From Streptomyces albofaciens JCM 4342 (GTDB lineage Bacteria; Actinomycetota; Actinomycetes; Streptomycetales; Streptomycetaceae): a stretch of DNA of 64,000 nt. Under the pieces are notes generated by a model. That model was not told the origin of the DNA. It did no database searches and worked only from the letters and a program-made list of their open reading frames with translations. Location of the stretch: contig NZ_PDCM01000002.1 of assembly GCF_008634025.1 (NCBI RefSeq), positions 1,364,001 to 1,428,000 of the forward strand. The letters run 5' to 3'. How positions within the stretch are numbered: the first letter of the stretch is position 1; each line of letters begins with the position of its first letter. Both the position numbers and the translations under genes were made by a program. Shown here one piece after another: positions 1,825 to 25,275 of the stretch.

Positions 1825-3303
1825 GTGACCGAGTTGACCGCTGACCCACGGGCCGCCGCCGCACGGCCCGCCCCGATACCACCGCACCCCGGTGCGCTGC
1901 TCACCGTTCTGCTGTCCGCGTGGTTCATGGCGCAGTTCGACTTCTTCGTCGTCAACGTCGCCGCTCCTTCACTGGAACACGACCTGCACACGGGGCCCGC
2001 CGCCCTGGAACTGATCGTCGGCGGCTATGCCTTCGCCTACGCCAGCGGCATGATCACCGGCGGCCGGCTCGGTGACCTCTTCGGTCACCGGCGCACGTTC
2101 GTCGCGGGGCTGCTCGCCTTCGCCGTCACCTCGCTGCTGTGCGGCATCGCGGTGAGCCCGGCCCAGCTGGTGGGCGCGCGGCTGCTGCAGGGCTTCGCCG
2201 GGGCGGTGATGGTGCCACAGGTGCTCGCGACGATCACCGCGTCGTTCCCGGCGCACGCCCGGGGCCGGGCGATGGCCTGGTACGGCGTGGCCGGCGGCTC
2301 GGCCTCGGTCGCCGGCCAGGTCCTCGGCGGGCTGCTGCTGGACGCCGACGTCCTCGGGCTGGGCTGGCGCGTCCTGTTCCTGGTCAACGTGCCGGTCGGC
2401 GTGGTCGCGGCGGCGCTGGCGGTGCGGTACCTGCCCGCGGTGCGCCCCGCCCGCCGGGCCCGGCTGGACCTGCCCGGCGCGGGCGGCGTGGCCCTGACGC
2501 TGGGCCTGGTGCTCGTCCCCCTCGCCATGGGGCGCACCGCCGGGTGGCCTGCCTGGACATGGCTGTGCCTGGGCGCCGCCGTGCCGGTGGGCGCGGCGAC
2601 CGTGTACTGGCAGCGGGTCCTGGCCGCCCGCGGCGGCGCCCCGGTCCTCGACCTCTCGCTGTTCCGCGAGGGGTCCTATCTGGCCGGCGTGGTGGCCCAG
2701 GCCGCGTTCATGGCGTACTGGGCGAGCCTGATGTTCACCCTGACACTGCTGCTCCAGGGCGGTTACGGGCTCGGGCCCTTCGAGGCGGGGCTCGCCTTCG
2801 CGCCCACCGGCGTCTGCTTCGCGGGCAGTTCGCTGCTCTCCCGCCCGCTGGTGCAGCGTTACGGTCTGCGCGTCCTGCAACTGGGCAGCGTCGTCACGGT
2901 GACCGGCCTGTCGGCGCTCACCCTCGTACTCGCCCTCCGGCCGGACCGCGGGGCGCTGCTCTGGGTGGTCCTGACCATGGCGGTGGCCGGTGTGGGCAAC
3001 GGGCTCACGTTCCCGCAGCTGATCGGCGCCTCCCTGGTACGGGTGCCGGCGCGGCGGGCCGGCACCGGCGCCGGGGTGCTCACCACGGCCCAGCAGTTCG
3101 GCGGCGCCGCCGGTGTGGCGATCCTCGGAACGGCCTTCTTCGCGCTGGCCGGGCCCGCGCCGGACACCGCCGGCCACGCCCGTGCCGCCATGTGGACCAC
3201 GCTGGTCTCGGTCGTCCTGACCTGCGTGGTCACGGTGCTGACCGTGGTCCTGCGGCGCGCGGCCGACCGCGCGGCGCGGGAGGACAAGGCGGCGGACGGC
3301 TGA
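1825..3303 (+). CDS. MFS drug-resistance-type exporter (DHA2, EmrB/QacA-like)
   Basis: 492-residue integral membrane protein of the 14-helix DHA2 branch of the major facilitator superfamily, typically a proton-coupled exporter of drugs or metabolites. The sequence begins with WFMAQFDFFVVNVAAPSL, the usual first-helix D/N motif of the family. It has motif A as GRLGDLFGHRRTF between helices 2 and 3 and an antiporter-type motif C region (GGSASVAGQVLGGLL). The GTG at 1825 fits the homologous N-terminus; the open frame extends far upstream but overlaps the sphingomyelinase gene. No regulator is adjacent, yet an inverted repeat overlaps the promoter, suggesting control by a distant TetR- or MarR-type repressor. 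The substrate is unknown. Confidence 0.85.
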   Translation: MTELTADPRAAAARPAPIPPHPGALLTVLLSAWFMAQFDFFVVNVAAPSLEHDLHTGPAALELIVGGYAFAYASGMITGGRLGDLFGHRRTFVAGLLAFAVTSLLCGIAVSPAQLVGARLLQGFAGAVMVPQVLATITASFPAHARGRAMAWYGVAGGSASVAGQVLGGLLLDADVLGLGWRVLFLVNVPVGVVAAALAVRYLPAVRPARRARLDLPGAGGVALTLGLVLVPLAMGRTAGWPAWTWLCLGAAVPVGAATVYWQRVLAARGGAPVLDLSLFREGSYLAGVVAQAAFMAYWASLMFTLTLLLQGGYGLGPFEAGLAFAPTGVCFAGSSLLSRPLVQRYGLRVLQLGSVVTVTGLSALTLVLALRPDRGALLWVVLTMAVAGVGNGLTFPQLIGASLVRVPARRAGTGAGVLTTAQQFGGAAGVAILGTAFFALAGPAPDTAGHARAAMWTTLVSVVLTCVVTVLTVVLRRAADRAAREDKAADG

Positions 3304-21480: not shown

Positions 21481-22671
21481 GTGACCACAGCCGACACGAT
21501 GCCCCTTGCCTACCCGTTCAACGACGCCGACGGACTGGCCCTGTCCGAGACCTACGCACAGGTCCGCGACCGGCCCGGACTGCTGCGGGTACAGATGGCG
21601 TACGGCGAACCGGCCTGGCTCGCCACCCGTTACGCCGACGCCCGGCTGGTCCTCGGCGACCGGCGCTTCAGCCGCGCGGAAGGGCTCGAACGCGACGAGC
21701 CGCGGCAGTCGGAGGGCCAGCGGGACAGCGGGATACTCAGCATGGACCCGCCCGACCACACCCGGCTGCGCACCCTGGTCGCCAAGGCGTTCACCGTCCA
21801 CCAGGTGGAGAAACTGCGGCCGTGGGTGCGCGAGTTGACGCACGGCCTGATCGACGAGCTGGAGGCCGCGGGCCCGCCCGTGGACCTCGTGGACCGCTAC
21901 GCCCTGCCCATCCCGGTCGCGGTCATCTGCCGGATGCTCGGCGTACCCGAGGAGGACCGGCCCAAGTTCCGCACGTGGAGCGACGCCGCGCTGTCCACCA
22001 GCTCGCTGACGGCCGAGGAGTTCGAGGCCAACCGCGAGGAACTGCGCGCCTACATGGCGAAGTTGATCGAGGATCACCGGGTGACGCCGCGGGACGACCT
22101 GATGACGCGGCTGATCGAGGCCCGGGACGTCGGCGACCGGCTGTCCGAGCTGGAGCTGATCGACCTGTGCGTCGGCATCCTGGTCGCCGGGCACGAGACG
22201 ACGGCCACCCAGATCCCCAACTTCGTCCTGTCGCTGCTGGACCACCCGGGTGAACTGGAGCGGCTGCGCGCCGAGCCCTCGCTGGTCAAGAGCGCCGTCG
22301 AGGAGCTGCTGCGCTTCGTGCCGCTCGGCAGCGGCGCGGGCTTCCCGCGCTACGCCACCGAGGACATCGAGGTGGGCGGCACACTCGTCCGTGCGGGTGA
22401 ACCGGTGCTGGTCGCGGTCGGCGCGGCCAACCGGGACGCGCTGCGCTTCGACGAGCCGGGCACCCTGAACATCGCCCGCGACGGCAACCAGCACCTCGGC
22501 TTCGGGCACGGCGTGCACCACTGCCTCGGCGCGCCACTGGCCCGGCTGGAGCTCCAGGAGGCGCTGATCGCCCTGATCACCCGCTTCCCGAAGCTGCACG
22601 TGGCCGGGGACGTGGTGTGGAAGGACCAGATGCTGGTCCGCGGCCCGCGCGTGATGCCGGTGGGGTGGTGA
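21481..22671 (+). CDS. Cytochrome P450
   Basis: 396-residue soluble bacterial P450. The oxygen-activating I-helix motif is AGHETTATQ, the K-helix EELLR supplies the ExxR pair, and the haem loop is FGHGVHHCLGAPLAR with the axial Cys. Length and motifs fit CYP105/CYP107-type actinobacterial monooxygenases that hydroxylate small organic molecules. GTG at 21481 is preceded by GGGAGGCC. The stop overlaps the start of a [3Fe-4S] ferredoxin gene, its likely electron donor, and a TetR gene is divergent. The substrate is unknown; inducible xenobiotic or terpenoid oxidation is plausible. Confidence 0.93.
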   Translation: MTTADTMPLAYPFNDADGLALSETYAQVRDRPGLLRVQMAYGEPAWLATRYADARLVLGDRRFSRAEGLERDEPRQSEGQRDSGILSMDPPDHTRLRTLVAKAFTVHQVEKLRPWVRELTHGLIDELEAAGPPVDLVDRYALPIPVAVICRMLGVPEEDRPKFRTWSDAALSTSSLTAEEFEANREELRAYMAKLIEDHRVTPRDDLMTRLIEARDVGDRLSELELIDLCVGILVAGHETTATQIPNFVLSLLDHPGELERLRAEPSLVKSAVEELLRFVPLGSGAGFPRYATEDIEVGGTLVRAGEPVLVAVGAANRDALRFDEPGTLNIARDGNQHLGFGHGVHHCLGAPLARLELQEALIALITRFPKLHVAGDVVWKDQMLVRGPRVMPVGW

Positions 22672-22892
22672 GCCGGATGACGTGGAAGGCGTCGATCGAC
22701 GGGCAGCAGTGCATGGCGTCCGGCATGTGCGCGGGCATCGCCCCGGACCTCTTCGTCCTGGACGGCCCGCACGCCCGGCCGCTCCGGGAGGAGATCCCCG
22801 AGGACGAGGCCGCACTGGACGCGGCGGACTCCTGCCCCGCCATGGCGATCCTGATCCGGGACGGGGAGAAGGTGGTCGGGCCGCGGCCCTGA
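22668..22892 (+). CDS. [3Fe-4S]-type ferredoxin, P450 partner
   Basis: About 74 residues. CMASGMC and the later DSCPAM provide the three cysteines of a single [3Fe-4S] cluster, the type that delivers electrons to actinobacterial P450s. The assigned GTG overlaps the P450 stop (GTGA); an ATG nine bases later (22677) is also possible. Either way translation is coupled to the P450. The C-terminal DGEKVVGPRP is usual for the family. Confidence 0.9.
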   Translation: MSRMTWKASIDGQQCMASGMCAGIAPDLFVLDGPHARPLREEIPEDEAALDAADSCPAMAILIRDGEKVVGPRP

Positions 22893-23930: not shown

Positions 23931-23943
23931 TACGATGGCACTC
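23931..23943 (+). promoter_or_regulatory. Possible leaderless -10 element
   Basis: TACGAT (23931-23936) ends seven bases before the YciI-like ATG, and no Shine-Dalgarno is seen between them. Transcription would begin at or next to the start codon. Confidence 0.4.
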
Positions 23944-24243
23944 ATGTTCGTACTGGAGCTGACCTATACCGCGCCGCTGGAGCGCGTCGACGCCGCCCTG
24001 CCCGACCACGTGGAGTGGCTGAAGAGGAACTACGCGGCCGGGCACTTCCTCGCCGCGGGCCGCAAGGTGCCGCGCGACGGCGGCGTCATCCTCGCGTCCG
24101 TGCCGGACCGGGCGACGGCGGAGCGGATCGTCGCGGAGGACCCCTTCACGGTCGCGGGCGTCTGCGACTACCGGATCACCGAGTTCGTGGCGACCACGAC
24201 CGCACCGGAACTGGAGCGGTTCAGGGAACAGCTGCCGTCCTGA
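23944..24243 (+). CDS. YciI-like dimeric alpha/beta-barrel protein
   Basis: 99 residues matching the YciI family (ferredoxin-like fold) over its full length: MFVLELTYTAPLERVDAAL, HVEWLKRNYAAGHFLAAGR with the family His and Arg, and EDPFTVAGVCDYRITEF. Family members are small enzymes or ligand-binding proteins of mostly unknown role. ATG at 23944 matches homologues; an in-frame ATG three codons earlier is possible. There is no ribosome site and a -10-like TACGAT sits seven bases upstream, so it may be translated from a leaderless mRNA. Its stop lies only five bases from the end of the convergent nucleotidyltransferase gene. Confidence 0.82.
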   Translation: MFVLELTYTAPLERVDAALPDHVEWLKRNYAAGHFLAAGRKVPRDGGVILASVPDRATAERIVAEDPFTVAGVCDYRITEFVATTTAPELERFREQLPS

Positions 24244-25085: not shown

Positions 25086-25097
25086 GGATCGAATCTC

Positions 25098-25188
25098 CTG
25101 AGCAGAAGGATGGGCATGCGGACAGACTGGACCCGCCCGGCGGCAGAATGCCGGGCGGCCAGGTCACGGAACGCGTCCGTCTGCTCAG
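25098..25188 (-). promoter_or_regulatory. Attenuator-like leader of the lincosamide nucleotidyltransferase gene
   Basis: In the mRNA sense, CTGAGCAGA (25188-25180) is complementary to TCTGCTCAG (25106-25098), whose last two bases are the first two of the Shine-Dalgarno AGGAG (25099-25095). Pairing continues inward with CGGAC/GTCCG (25179-25175 with 25123-25119). A 9-bp hairpin (25158-25150 with 25141-25133, 8-nt loop) lies inside. The stop codon of a five-codon leader ORF is within the 5' arm, so a stalled ribosome would free the ribosome site. Confidence 0.6.
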
Positions 25189-25202
25189 ATGAAGATGCCC
25201 AT
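25185..25202 (-). CDS. Candidate five-codon leader ORF (MGIFI)
   Basis: ATG GGC ATC TTC ATC TGA encodes Met-Gly-Ile-Phe-Ile. Its stop lies in the 5' arm of the inverted repeat that sequesters the resistance gene's ribosome site. The start of the ErmC leader peptide, where macrolides stall ribosomes, is also MGIF. No clear Shine-Dalgarno precedes it, and an overlapping ATG in another frame (25210) could compete, so this is a candidate only. Confidence 0.4.
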   Translation of the reverse strand: MGIFI

Positions 25203-25275
25203 GGGGCCATGGTGCCAGGGATGATCGCCGGCGGGCCACCCGATTTCCGGTGTACGGGGCGGGACCGTGCCCTGG

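Follow-up and report, generated by a model that had tools for sequence, protein, structure and literature searches.

A putative translational attenuator built on a leaderless mini-uORF before a lincosamide nucleotidyltransferase homologue of Streptomyces

In the ermC leader, a hairpin hides the Shine-Dalgarno (SD) sequence, which a drug-stalled ribosome releases; stalling on ErmCL, a leader of 19 residues, is macrolide- and peptide-specific and takes place at an internal codon. Ribosome-mediated attenuation by tiny upstream ORFs (uORFs) is known for ABC-F genes of Firmicutes and Streptomyces (PMC10201436, PMC8546547, PMC12421871). In the Streptomyces ARE5 ABC-F attenuators are5sc (uORF MLV) and tiaA (uORF MVGDDDISG), stalling by lincosamides, streptogramin A and pleuromutilins at the uORF start has been reported as shown, lmrC is described as induced by the same drug classes, and the 5′ UTRs of tiaA (194 bp) and are5sc (232 bp) are described with terminator and antiterminator conformations (PMC12421871, PMC8546547). 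In cplR of C. difficile (uORF MRI), stalling on a tiny uORF likewise frees the SD of the resistance gene, with reporters said to support translational attenuation (PMC10201436). Leader ORFs without any 5′ UTR are described in S. lividans (LeuL, TrpL, IlvL, MetL and ThrL; PMC8079986), and leaderless upstream small ORFs are known in mycobacteria (PMC4633059).

The DNA analysed here, a 64,000-nucleotide stretch of the Streptomyces albofaciens JCM 4342 genome (the window), carries a small leader before a homologue of the lnu resistance genes (Table 1). We consider it likely that this leader attenuates translation by means of a leaderless mini-uORF, in which lincosamide arrest at the start codon would free the SD. 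Like those of are5sc and tiaA its uORF is short, but unlike those of are5sc, tiaA and lmrC it is predicted to be leaderless, holds the anti-SD itself and precedes the gene of a presumed drug-modifying enzyme. The cplR leader differs in its length of 212 nt, its intrinsic terminator with the SD in the terminator stem, its ABC-F gene and its Firmicute host (PMC10201436). The S. lividans leaders share the absent 5′ UTR but are described as sensing amino acids through 12-29 residues that include the regulatory amino acid, with termination proposed for several (PMC8079986). In contrast to ErmCL, the lnu uORFs mostly have 4-5 codons, their peptide is not conserved and the anti-SD would lie under a ribosome at the start codon. 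No Streptomyces lnu leader or leaderless resistance uORF was found among the titles and abstract openings listed in searches of open-licence PMC text.

Anatomy of the leader and the resistance gene

Table 1. Features of the lnu leader in the window and of two related uORFs in the same genome
Feature	Position	Strand	Basis
WblC/WhiB7 box GAAATC, exact GAAAWY match	25242..25247	(-)	consensus (PMC7157823)
-35 element TGGCCC, fits TKGMNN; 3 bp after box, 18-bp spacer	25233..25238	(-)	consensus match
Weak -10 element CACCAT, 6 nt before uORF ATG	25209..25214	(-)	TANNNT in 50/63 relatives
Leader uORF ATGGGCATCTTCATCTGA (MGIFI*)	25185..25202	(-)	read directly; start A = 25202
5′ arm (anti-SD arm) CTGAGCAGA, overlaps last uORF codon and stop	25180..25188	(-)	read directly and fold
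Nested intermediate stem region, from arms to central hairpin	25107..25180 (approximate limits)	(-)	fold, alignments
Central GC hairpin CCGCCCGGC-N8-GCCGGGCGG, 9 bp	25133..25158	(-)	25158-25150 pair with 25141-25133
3′ arm TCTGCTCAG, runs into SD	25098..25106	(-)	read directly and fold
SD AGGAGA of resistance gene	25094..25099	(-)	read directly
Lnu(F)/LinB-like lincosamide nucleotidyltransferase homologue, 278 aa	24249..25085	(-)	PF21418, LnuF model, LinB structures
Predicted leaderless 7-codon uORF MSTPRIS with WblC-type promoter, before ABC-F gene	L155 about 3047-3130 / G000:C2:4284546-4284673	minus (L155)	pattern match
Predicted leaderless uORF MAILLAH before second ABC-F family	L202 / G000:C1 about 2758373-2758540		sequence read

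The product of the resistance gene matches PF21418 (E 2.7e-18, 66.3 bits against a cut-off of 27) and has both a LinB-like C-terminal domain and full-length similarity to LinB, the solved LinB structures 3jyy/3jz0 matching residues 17-269 with an E value of 1.7e-33. The NCBIfam LnuF model gives 144.9 bits, under its curated cut-off of 450. By these matches the gene is a homologue of the Lnu(F)/LinB enzymes and not Lnu(F) itself, and its product is expected to inactivate lincosamides. A search of plasmids gave no match to it, and one of phages gave a single distant annotated Lnu, from a Streptococcus phage. Convergent with lnu, and ending 5 nt from it, is a small gene (23935-24243, plus strand) with weak YciI-like matches under the NCBIfam cut-offs; by eye, a similar sequence lies 3′ of lnu in locus L006 as well. 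Farther away (21481-22892, plus strand), the translations suggest by eye a cytochrome P450-like ORF followed by a small ferredoxin-like one.

Direct reading of the leader bears out the anatomy given in the earlier note, namely a leader ORF MGIFI whose stop lies in the 5′ arm of a 9-bp repeat and a 3′ arm that reaches the first SD bases: CTGAGCAGA is the perfect 9-bp complement of TCTGCTCAG, and the SD begins with the final two bases of the latter. The nested hairpins with their inner 9-bp helix also held up on folding of the leader RNA (25210-25070), which is predicted at -67.2 kcal/mol, whereas 200 dinucleotide shuffles average -53.0 ± 3.7 and none of them is as good (z -3.83). The sequence of the intermediate stem region varies between clades with pair-preserving changes. 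In the window and without a ribosome, the SD is predicted to be unpaired with a value of 0.14, its core partners being uORF nucleotides 15, 14 and 12. The lineage of the window is unusual in that the last uORF codon is AUC rather than UCC, the helix being prolonged beyond the stop instead.

Conservation of the uORF and its promoter

Homologous loci were drawn from a genus sample (199 genomes, 21 with an lnu match), a family sample (297 genomes, 43 with a match) and a phylum sample (396 genomes, 13 with a match, the new loci being distant and left out), together with a scan of named-species genomes that gave 54 loci in Streptomyces, Streptoalloteichus, Marinactinospora, Nocardiopsis, Actinoalloteichus, Wenjunlia and one MAG filed as Phycisphaerae. 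The closest named relative among the matches listed is S. rimosus (94%). After exclusion of L018, L052, L062 and L075 (fragments, truncated upstream sequence or MAG record), L019-L021 (weak partial hits), L084-L100 (distant homologues, 36-41%) and 13 duplicates, 63 distinct leaders were left for counting.

Conservation of the leader ORF in relatives, a check raised by the earlier note, is pronounced. A strict signature, defined as TANNNT followed after 6-8 nt by the ATG or GTG of a 4-12-codon ORF upstream of lnu, occurs in 50 of the 63 leaders as against a mean of 0.34 and a maximum of 1 in 50 rounds of dinucleotide shuffling; a looser scan of other genes in the same loci matched 2 of 120, both with a 5-nt gap. 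The window and the S. rimosus-like L002, L006, L015 and L027 have the ORF with a weaker -10, which brings the total to 55 of 63, and in the remaining 8 homologues the scan found no leader. Because of this conservation the element is more than a chance arrangement: a short ORF before the resistance gene is conserved beyond chance. Besides Streptomyces, loci of Streptoalloteichus, Actinoalloteichus, Nocardiopsis and Wenjunlia have kept it. Of the 62 rows of a protein tree, from which L067 is absent owing to a frame slip, 54 have the leader, and five changes on the tree are required to account for this distribution.

The uORFs have 4 (23 leaders), 5 (23), 6 (4), 7 (2) or 12 (3) codons, hence 4-5 codons in 46 of 55. 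They start with ATG in 51 and GTG in 4, and stop with UGA in 48. With the start read as Met, the 55 leaders encode 22 different peptides, among them MGVS, MGVFS, MGNFS, MCNFS, MANFS, MGMT and MSTS; MGIFI occurs in just three (L001, L002 and L023). What stays constant across leaders is the start position, a small second residue (Gly 39, Cys 11, Ala 2, Ser 2 and a single Met, hence small in 54 of 55) and a last codon UCC, present in 45 of 55.

These data bear on an Erm-type explanation, according to which the nascent MGIFI peptide causes stalling in the presence of a macrolide or lincosamide, as in ErmCL, and the stalled ribosome opens the outer helix. ErmCL also starts with MGIF, and the nested hairpins resemble erm leaders in outline. 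However, a conserved stalling peptide, as expected of an ErmCL-like attenuator, is not found among the 55 leaders, 46 of which have only 4-5 codons, and the Streptomyces uORFs tested in one report were not stalled by erythromycin (PMC12421871). We regard peptide-dependent stalling of this kind as improbable. Given this lack of peptide conservation, the likeness to the ErmC leader is most likely a coincidence; of the erm-type attenuation put forward in the earlier note, the translational-attenuator anatomy with a minimal leader ORF before an lnu homologue stands, whereas the ErmC analogy drawn from MGIF does not. Three Nocardiopsis loci (L060, L061 and L066) have 12-codon uORFs (MCAIAVTDLRLS, MCAIAVTERRPS) in which, by eye, a GC-rich segment could pair alternatively with two downstream segments. 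They are possibly a different, peptide-dependent multi-segment attenuator, and this MCAIAVTERRPS-like form, at 3 loci, could still use peptide stalling.

The earlier note had overlooked the position of the uORF start at the expected transcription start and the WblC-type promoter of the window, as well as two points taken up below: the SD partner falls within the uORF, where a ribosome stalled on the start codon would be expected to cover it, and ABC-F genes are preceded by the same design. The WblC consensus is given as GAAAWY-N3-TKGMNN-N16-19-TANNNT, and in WblC-activated promoters of Streptomyces most transcription starts are reported 7 or 8 bp after the -10 element (PMC7157823). The window reads GAAATC-GGG-TGGCCC-N18-CACCAT-N6-ATG, which fits the consensus at 6/6 bases in the box, 4/4 in the -35 and 2/3 fixed bases in the -10, and the A of its uORF start codon is the seventh base after the -10. 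In the 50 strict leaders the gap between -10 and uORF is 7 nt in 38, 6 in 10 and 8 in 2, so that this A is the seventh or eighth base in 48 and the ninth in 2. Such spacing places the transcription start at the uORF AUG, and the uORF is therefore probably leaderless, as judged from promoter spacing. In L024 (TACGAT-N6-ATG) and in L051 and L055 (TAGCAT-N7-ATG), the main lnu ATG occupies the same spot and the attenuator is absent; judged by eye, these appear to be natural leaderless versions of the lnu gene, which suggests that the spot is a working leaderless start.

A WblC box of at least 5/6 is found in 12 of the 55 leaders, compared with a mean of 0.57 and a maximum of 4 in 100 shuffles; WblC control, if real, is therefore confined to a subset, to which the window promoter would belong by its sequence. 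It might be argued that WblC alone regulates lnu and that the leader is a fixed hairpin lowering translation, its uORF being no sensor. The near-perfect WblC-type promoter of the window is in keeping with this, as are the GAAA boxes seen by eye upstream of lnu in L031, L070 and L072, relatives that have no leader. However, there would then be no need for a fixed distance from -10 to ORF or for an SD helix that takes in the final codon and stop of the uORF, and 43 of the 55 uORF leaders lack a good WblC box. This explanation is unlikely, if slightly less so than the Erm-type one.

Predicted pairing of the SD with the uORF and the proposed mechanism

Predicted SD:uORF pairing exceeds 0.5 in 43 of the 55 leaders (median over all 55, 0.96), against a mean of 1.4 and a maximum of 3 in ten rounds in which the part upstream of the SD was shuffled. 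A second rule, pairing of at least three of the four SD-core bases to the uORF, is also passed by 43 of 55, with L004 in and L023 out; L008, L016, L023, L039, L044, L047, L048, L058, L060, L061, L066 and L078 fail it. The SD core pairs with uORF nucleotides 12-15 in 19 leaders, including that of the window, 9-12 in 17, 9-11 in one and 8-11 in one, and in the others with 15-18 (two), 16-19 (one) or 18-21 (two). The anti-SD is thus within the uORF in 43/43, at or before nucleotide 16 in 38/43 and beyond it in 5/43. The 12 leaders with pairing of 0.5 or less comprise the MGMS/MGMT/MGTT clade, the three Nocardiopsis loci and others, and would accordingly work differently or not at all. Over all 55 leaders, the models predict that the SD of lnu is sequestered in the uninduced fold (median unpaired value, 0.03).

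A ribosome with AUG in its P site covers about 16 nt, which is about the anti-SD stretch. Masking uORF nucleotides 1-16 raises the mean predicted SD accessibility from 0.10 to 0.32, whereas an equal mask placed just downstream leaves it at 0.10. In the window the same mask brings accessibility from 0.14 to 0.51; it exceeds 0.5 in only 7 of the 55 leaders, the window included. Opening of the SD on stalling is thus predicted to be partial.

RNAalifold run on a plain MAFFT alignment finds the central hairpin only, because the SD rows are offset by a base; the structure was hence named on an unfitted alignment of 46 leaders (A1) and refitted to give alignment A3, which favours the structure. In A1, 43 cells show kept double changes against 26.9 in shuffles; in A3 there are 47 against 24.5, with 0/500 shuffles as high in either case. 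In A3, 82.6% of cells are paired, compared with at most 44.0% in slid registers. Counted by pair, A1 shows no excess, either in pairs with a double change (13 against 10.5 shuffled, 60/500 as high) or in further pair types (31 against 31.8, 370/500 as high). The inner stems account for 34 of the 47 double-change cells of A3, and the SD:uORF helix, with its nearly invariant SD and stop codon, for 7. Within the lnu leader family, no helix is better conserved than the central GC hairpin. An extra helix between uORF nucleotides 1-8 and the pre-SD region, at -8.1 kcal/mol against -7.1 and -5.8 kcal/mol for shuffles, is only somewhat better and was dropped.

A covariance model (R1) built from the 46 leaders finds the lnu leader alone as significant in the window's own genome (E 1.1e-12; next match 0.28). 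In 150 genus genomes, 11 strong matches among those listed (E at most 1.2e-9) all lie directly before lnu. The other six genomes with full-length lnu (G153, G162, G173, G177, G190 and G196) have no R1 match among those listed, presumably because they fall outside the smaller draw of 150; their leaders (L005, L006, L007, L009, L010 and L012), read separately, score at least 59 bits with R1. Ten weak matches in the 150 genomes have E values of 0.0045-0.0394. Nine of these ten and L102 of the window's own genome were inspected and taken as chance, since there is no TANNNT with a short uORF nearby.

The conserved central hairpin is also the point from which an explanation by transcriptional attenuation would start, the GC-rich hairpin acting as a conditional terminator and stalling on the uORF forming an antiterminator. 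Streptomyces terminators can do without U tracts. Against this explanation, no run of three or more T follows the hairpin within 20 nt in 46/46 A1 leaders, and the SD itself is the 3′ partner in 43/55, which points to translation. Transcriptional attenuation is described for lmrC of Streptomyces and has been put forward for are5sc and tiaA (PMC12421871, PMC8546547), and we take it to be the least unlikely of the alternatives, though still unlikely. Control of the SD by a ligand-binding riboswitch or an RNA thermometer would suit an RNA as stable and conserved as this one, but an Rfam search of the leader RNA gave no match at E up to 1 and conservation in A1 falls mainly on the end of the uORF, the hairpins and the SD; we consider it very improbable.

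The preferred reading, attenuation by a leaderless mini-uORF, builds on what was computed here: the uORF, the -10 spacing, the predicted SD:uORF pairing, the position of the anti-SD, conservation and loss events. The promoter, of WblC type in the window, would start transcription at the A of the uORF AUG. With no drug present, ribosomes would load at the 5′ end, complete the 4-5 codons and depart, and the 3′ half of the uORF with its stop would pair with the SD of lnu, keeping it off. If formation of the first peptide bonds were blocked, by a lincosamide or by another drug with this action, a 70S ribosome would be held on the uORF start codon; with its footprint of about 16 nt this ribosome would cover the anti-SD site and so free the SD, and the inactivating enzyme would be made. 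In a subset, WblC may provide further control at the level of transcription. Termination at codon 4-5 would also place a ribosome over the anti-SD, and fast release must therefore be assumed. The drug-stalling step is supported by analogy: lincomycin and clindamycin, but not erythromycin, are reported to arrest Streptomyces ribosomes on the start codons of uORFs (PMC12421871). Start-codon arrest of the lincosamide type fits the leader geometry better than erm-type peptide stalling, and induction of the lnu leader by macrolides is not predicted.

The same layout before ABC-F genes

A search of the window's own genome for a WblC box with a leaderless ATG gave 8 sites (control, 0), one of which is the uORF MSTPRIS, 83 nt before a 533-residue ABC-F gene. 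The best NCBIfam model for this protein is a ribosomal-protection-like ABC-F, at 353.8 bits, below the cut-off of 380. In 61 genus genomes, 16 loci encode ABC-F proteins 71-100% identical to it, and a predicted leaderless MSTPR[IV]S uORF is present in 16/16. Matches of 60-64% occur in 60 of the 61 genomes; 14 loci of this second ABC-F family were read and 14/14 have a predicted leaderless uORF, mostly MAILLAH-like, as does the copy in the window's own genome. The -10 and leaderless-uORF layout thus precedes the two ABC-F families at 30/30 loci read, with unrelated peptides. No paper with the peptides MSTPRIS, MSTPRVS or MAILLAH was found in open-licence PMC text.

Predicted SD:uORF pairing exceeds 0.5 in 14/16 MSTPR and 12/14 MAILLAH-like leaders (a thirteenth is shown as 0.50), against shuffled means of 0.00-0.25, and the SD partners are mostly uORF nucleotides 10-14. 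Masking nucleotides 1-16 raises SD accessibility from 0.22 to 0.33 in the MSTPR leaders (13/16 rise) and from 0.18 to 0.23 in the MAILLAH-like ones (10/14 rise), a weak predicted opening. In 15 of the 16 MSTPR leaders (L171 being excluded from the pair count), the register of uORF nucleotides 7-16 with the SD holds 130/150 pairs and 7 kept double changes, compared with 81 pairs and one kept double change in the next best of nine registers. Nucleotide 11 is a C-A mismatch in 15/15, and nucleotides 15 (G-C in 4, A-U in 9) and 16 (A-U in 10, G-C in 3) alternate in step with the Ile/Val codon. On the evidence of this register and its alternating pairs, the layout recurs in a leader whose sequence is unrelated.

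The layout is rare in this genome. The pattern TANNNT-N6-7-ATG-N5-9-CTCC has 18 sites (controls, 3 and 6), made up of one mini-uORF (MAILLAH), one 28-codon ORF and 16 ORFs of at least 121 residues; the class is judged rare because these sites hold a single mini-uORF. GAAA with a leaderless ATG has 24 sites, of which 19 open ORFs of at least 129 residues and 5 open short ORFs of 1, 6, 6, 7 and 16 codons, one being the ABC-F leader and another lying before a threonyl-tRNA-synthetase-like ORF. Two sites are recorded as side observations. At L149 (G000:C1:4464741-4464789), a WblC-type promoter precedes a putative leaderless 16-codon ORF, MKRAGMTTTPEAVPAR, before a threonyl-tRNA-synthetase-like ORF, which resembles the thrL attenuator type (PMC8079986). 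At L200 (G000:C2:4440888-4440934), a minimal start-stop uORF 'ATG TGA' lies just after the -10 element, with a GAAA box, 73 nt before a 222-residue ORF.

Whether the three families, Lnu (MGVS-type), ABC-F A (MSTPR[IV]S) and ABC-F B (MAILLAH-like), exemplify a general switch seems to us an evenly balanced question. In that case leaderless anti-SD mini-uORFs would be a general drug-sensing switch of Streptomyces, used by at least three resistance or ribosome-protection-like families with unrelated peptides: the transcript would start at the uORF AUG, the codons at about nucleotides 9-16 would be the anti-SD, and one ribosome arrested at the start codon, with no peptide specificity, would be both sensor and switch.

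If the proposed mechanism is true, the lnu leader would be an unusually compact drug sensor, with no 5′ UTR before the sensing ORF and no stalling peptide, in which the ORF acts as its own anti-SD. The prediction is that drugs arresting the first peptide bonds induce and macrolides do not. Such leaders would be a way to keep the lincosamide inactivators of soil bacteria silent, and would suggest a role as resistance switches for some of the tiny leaderless ORFs of actinomycete transcriptomes.
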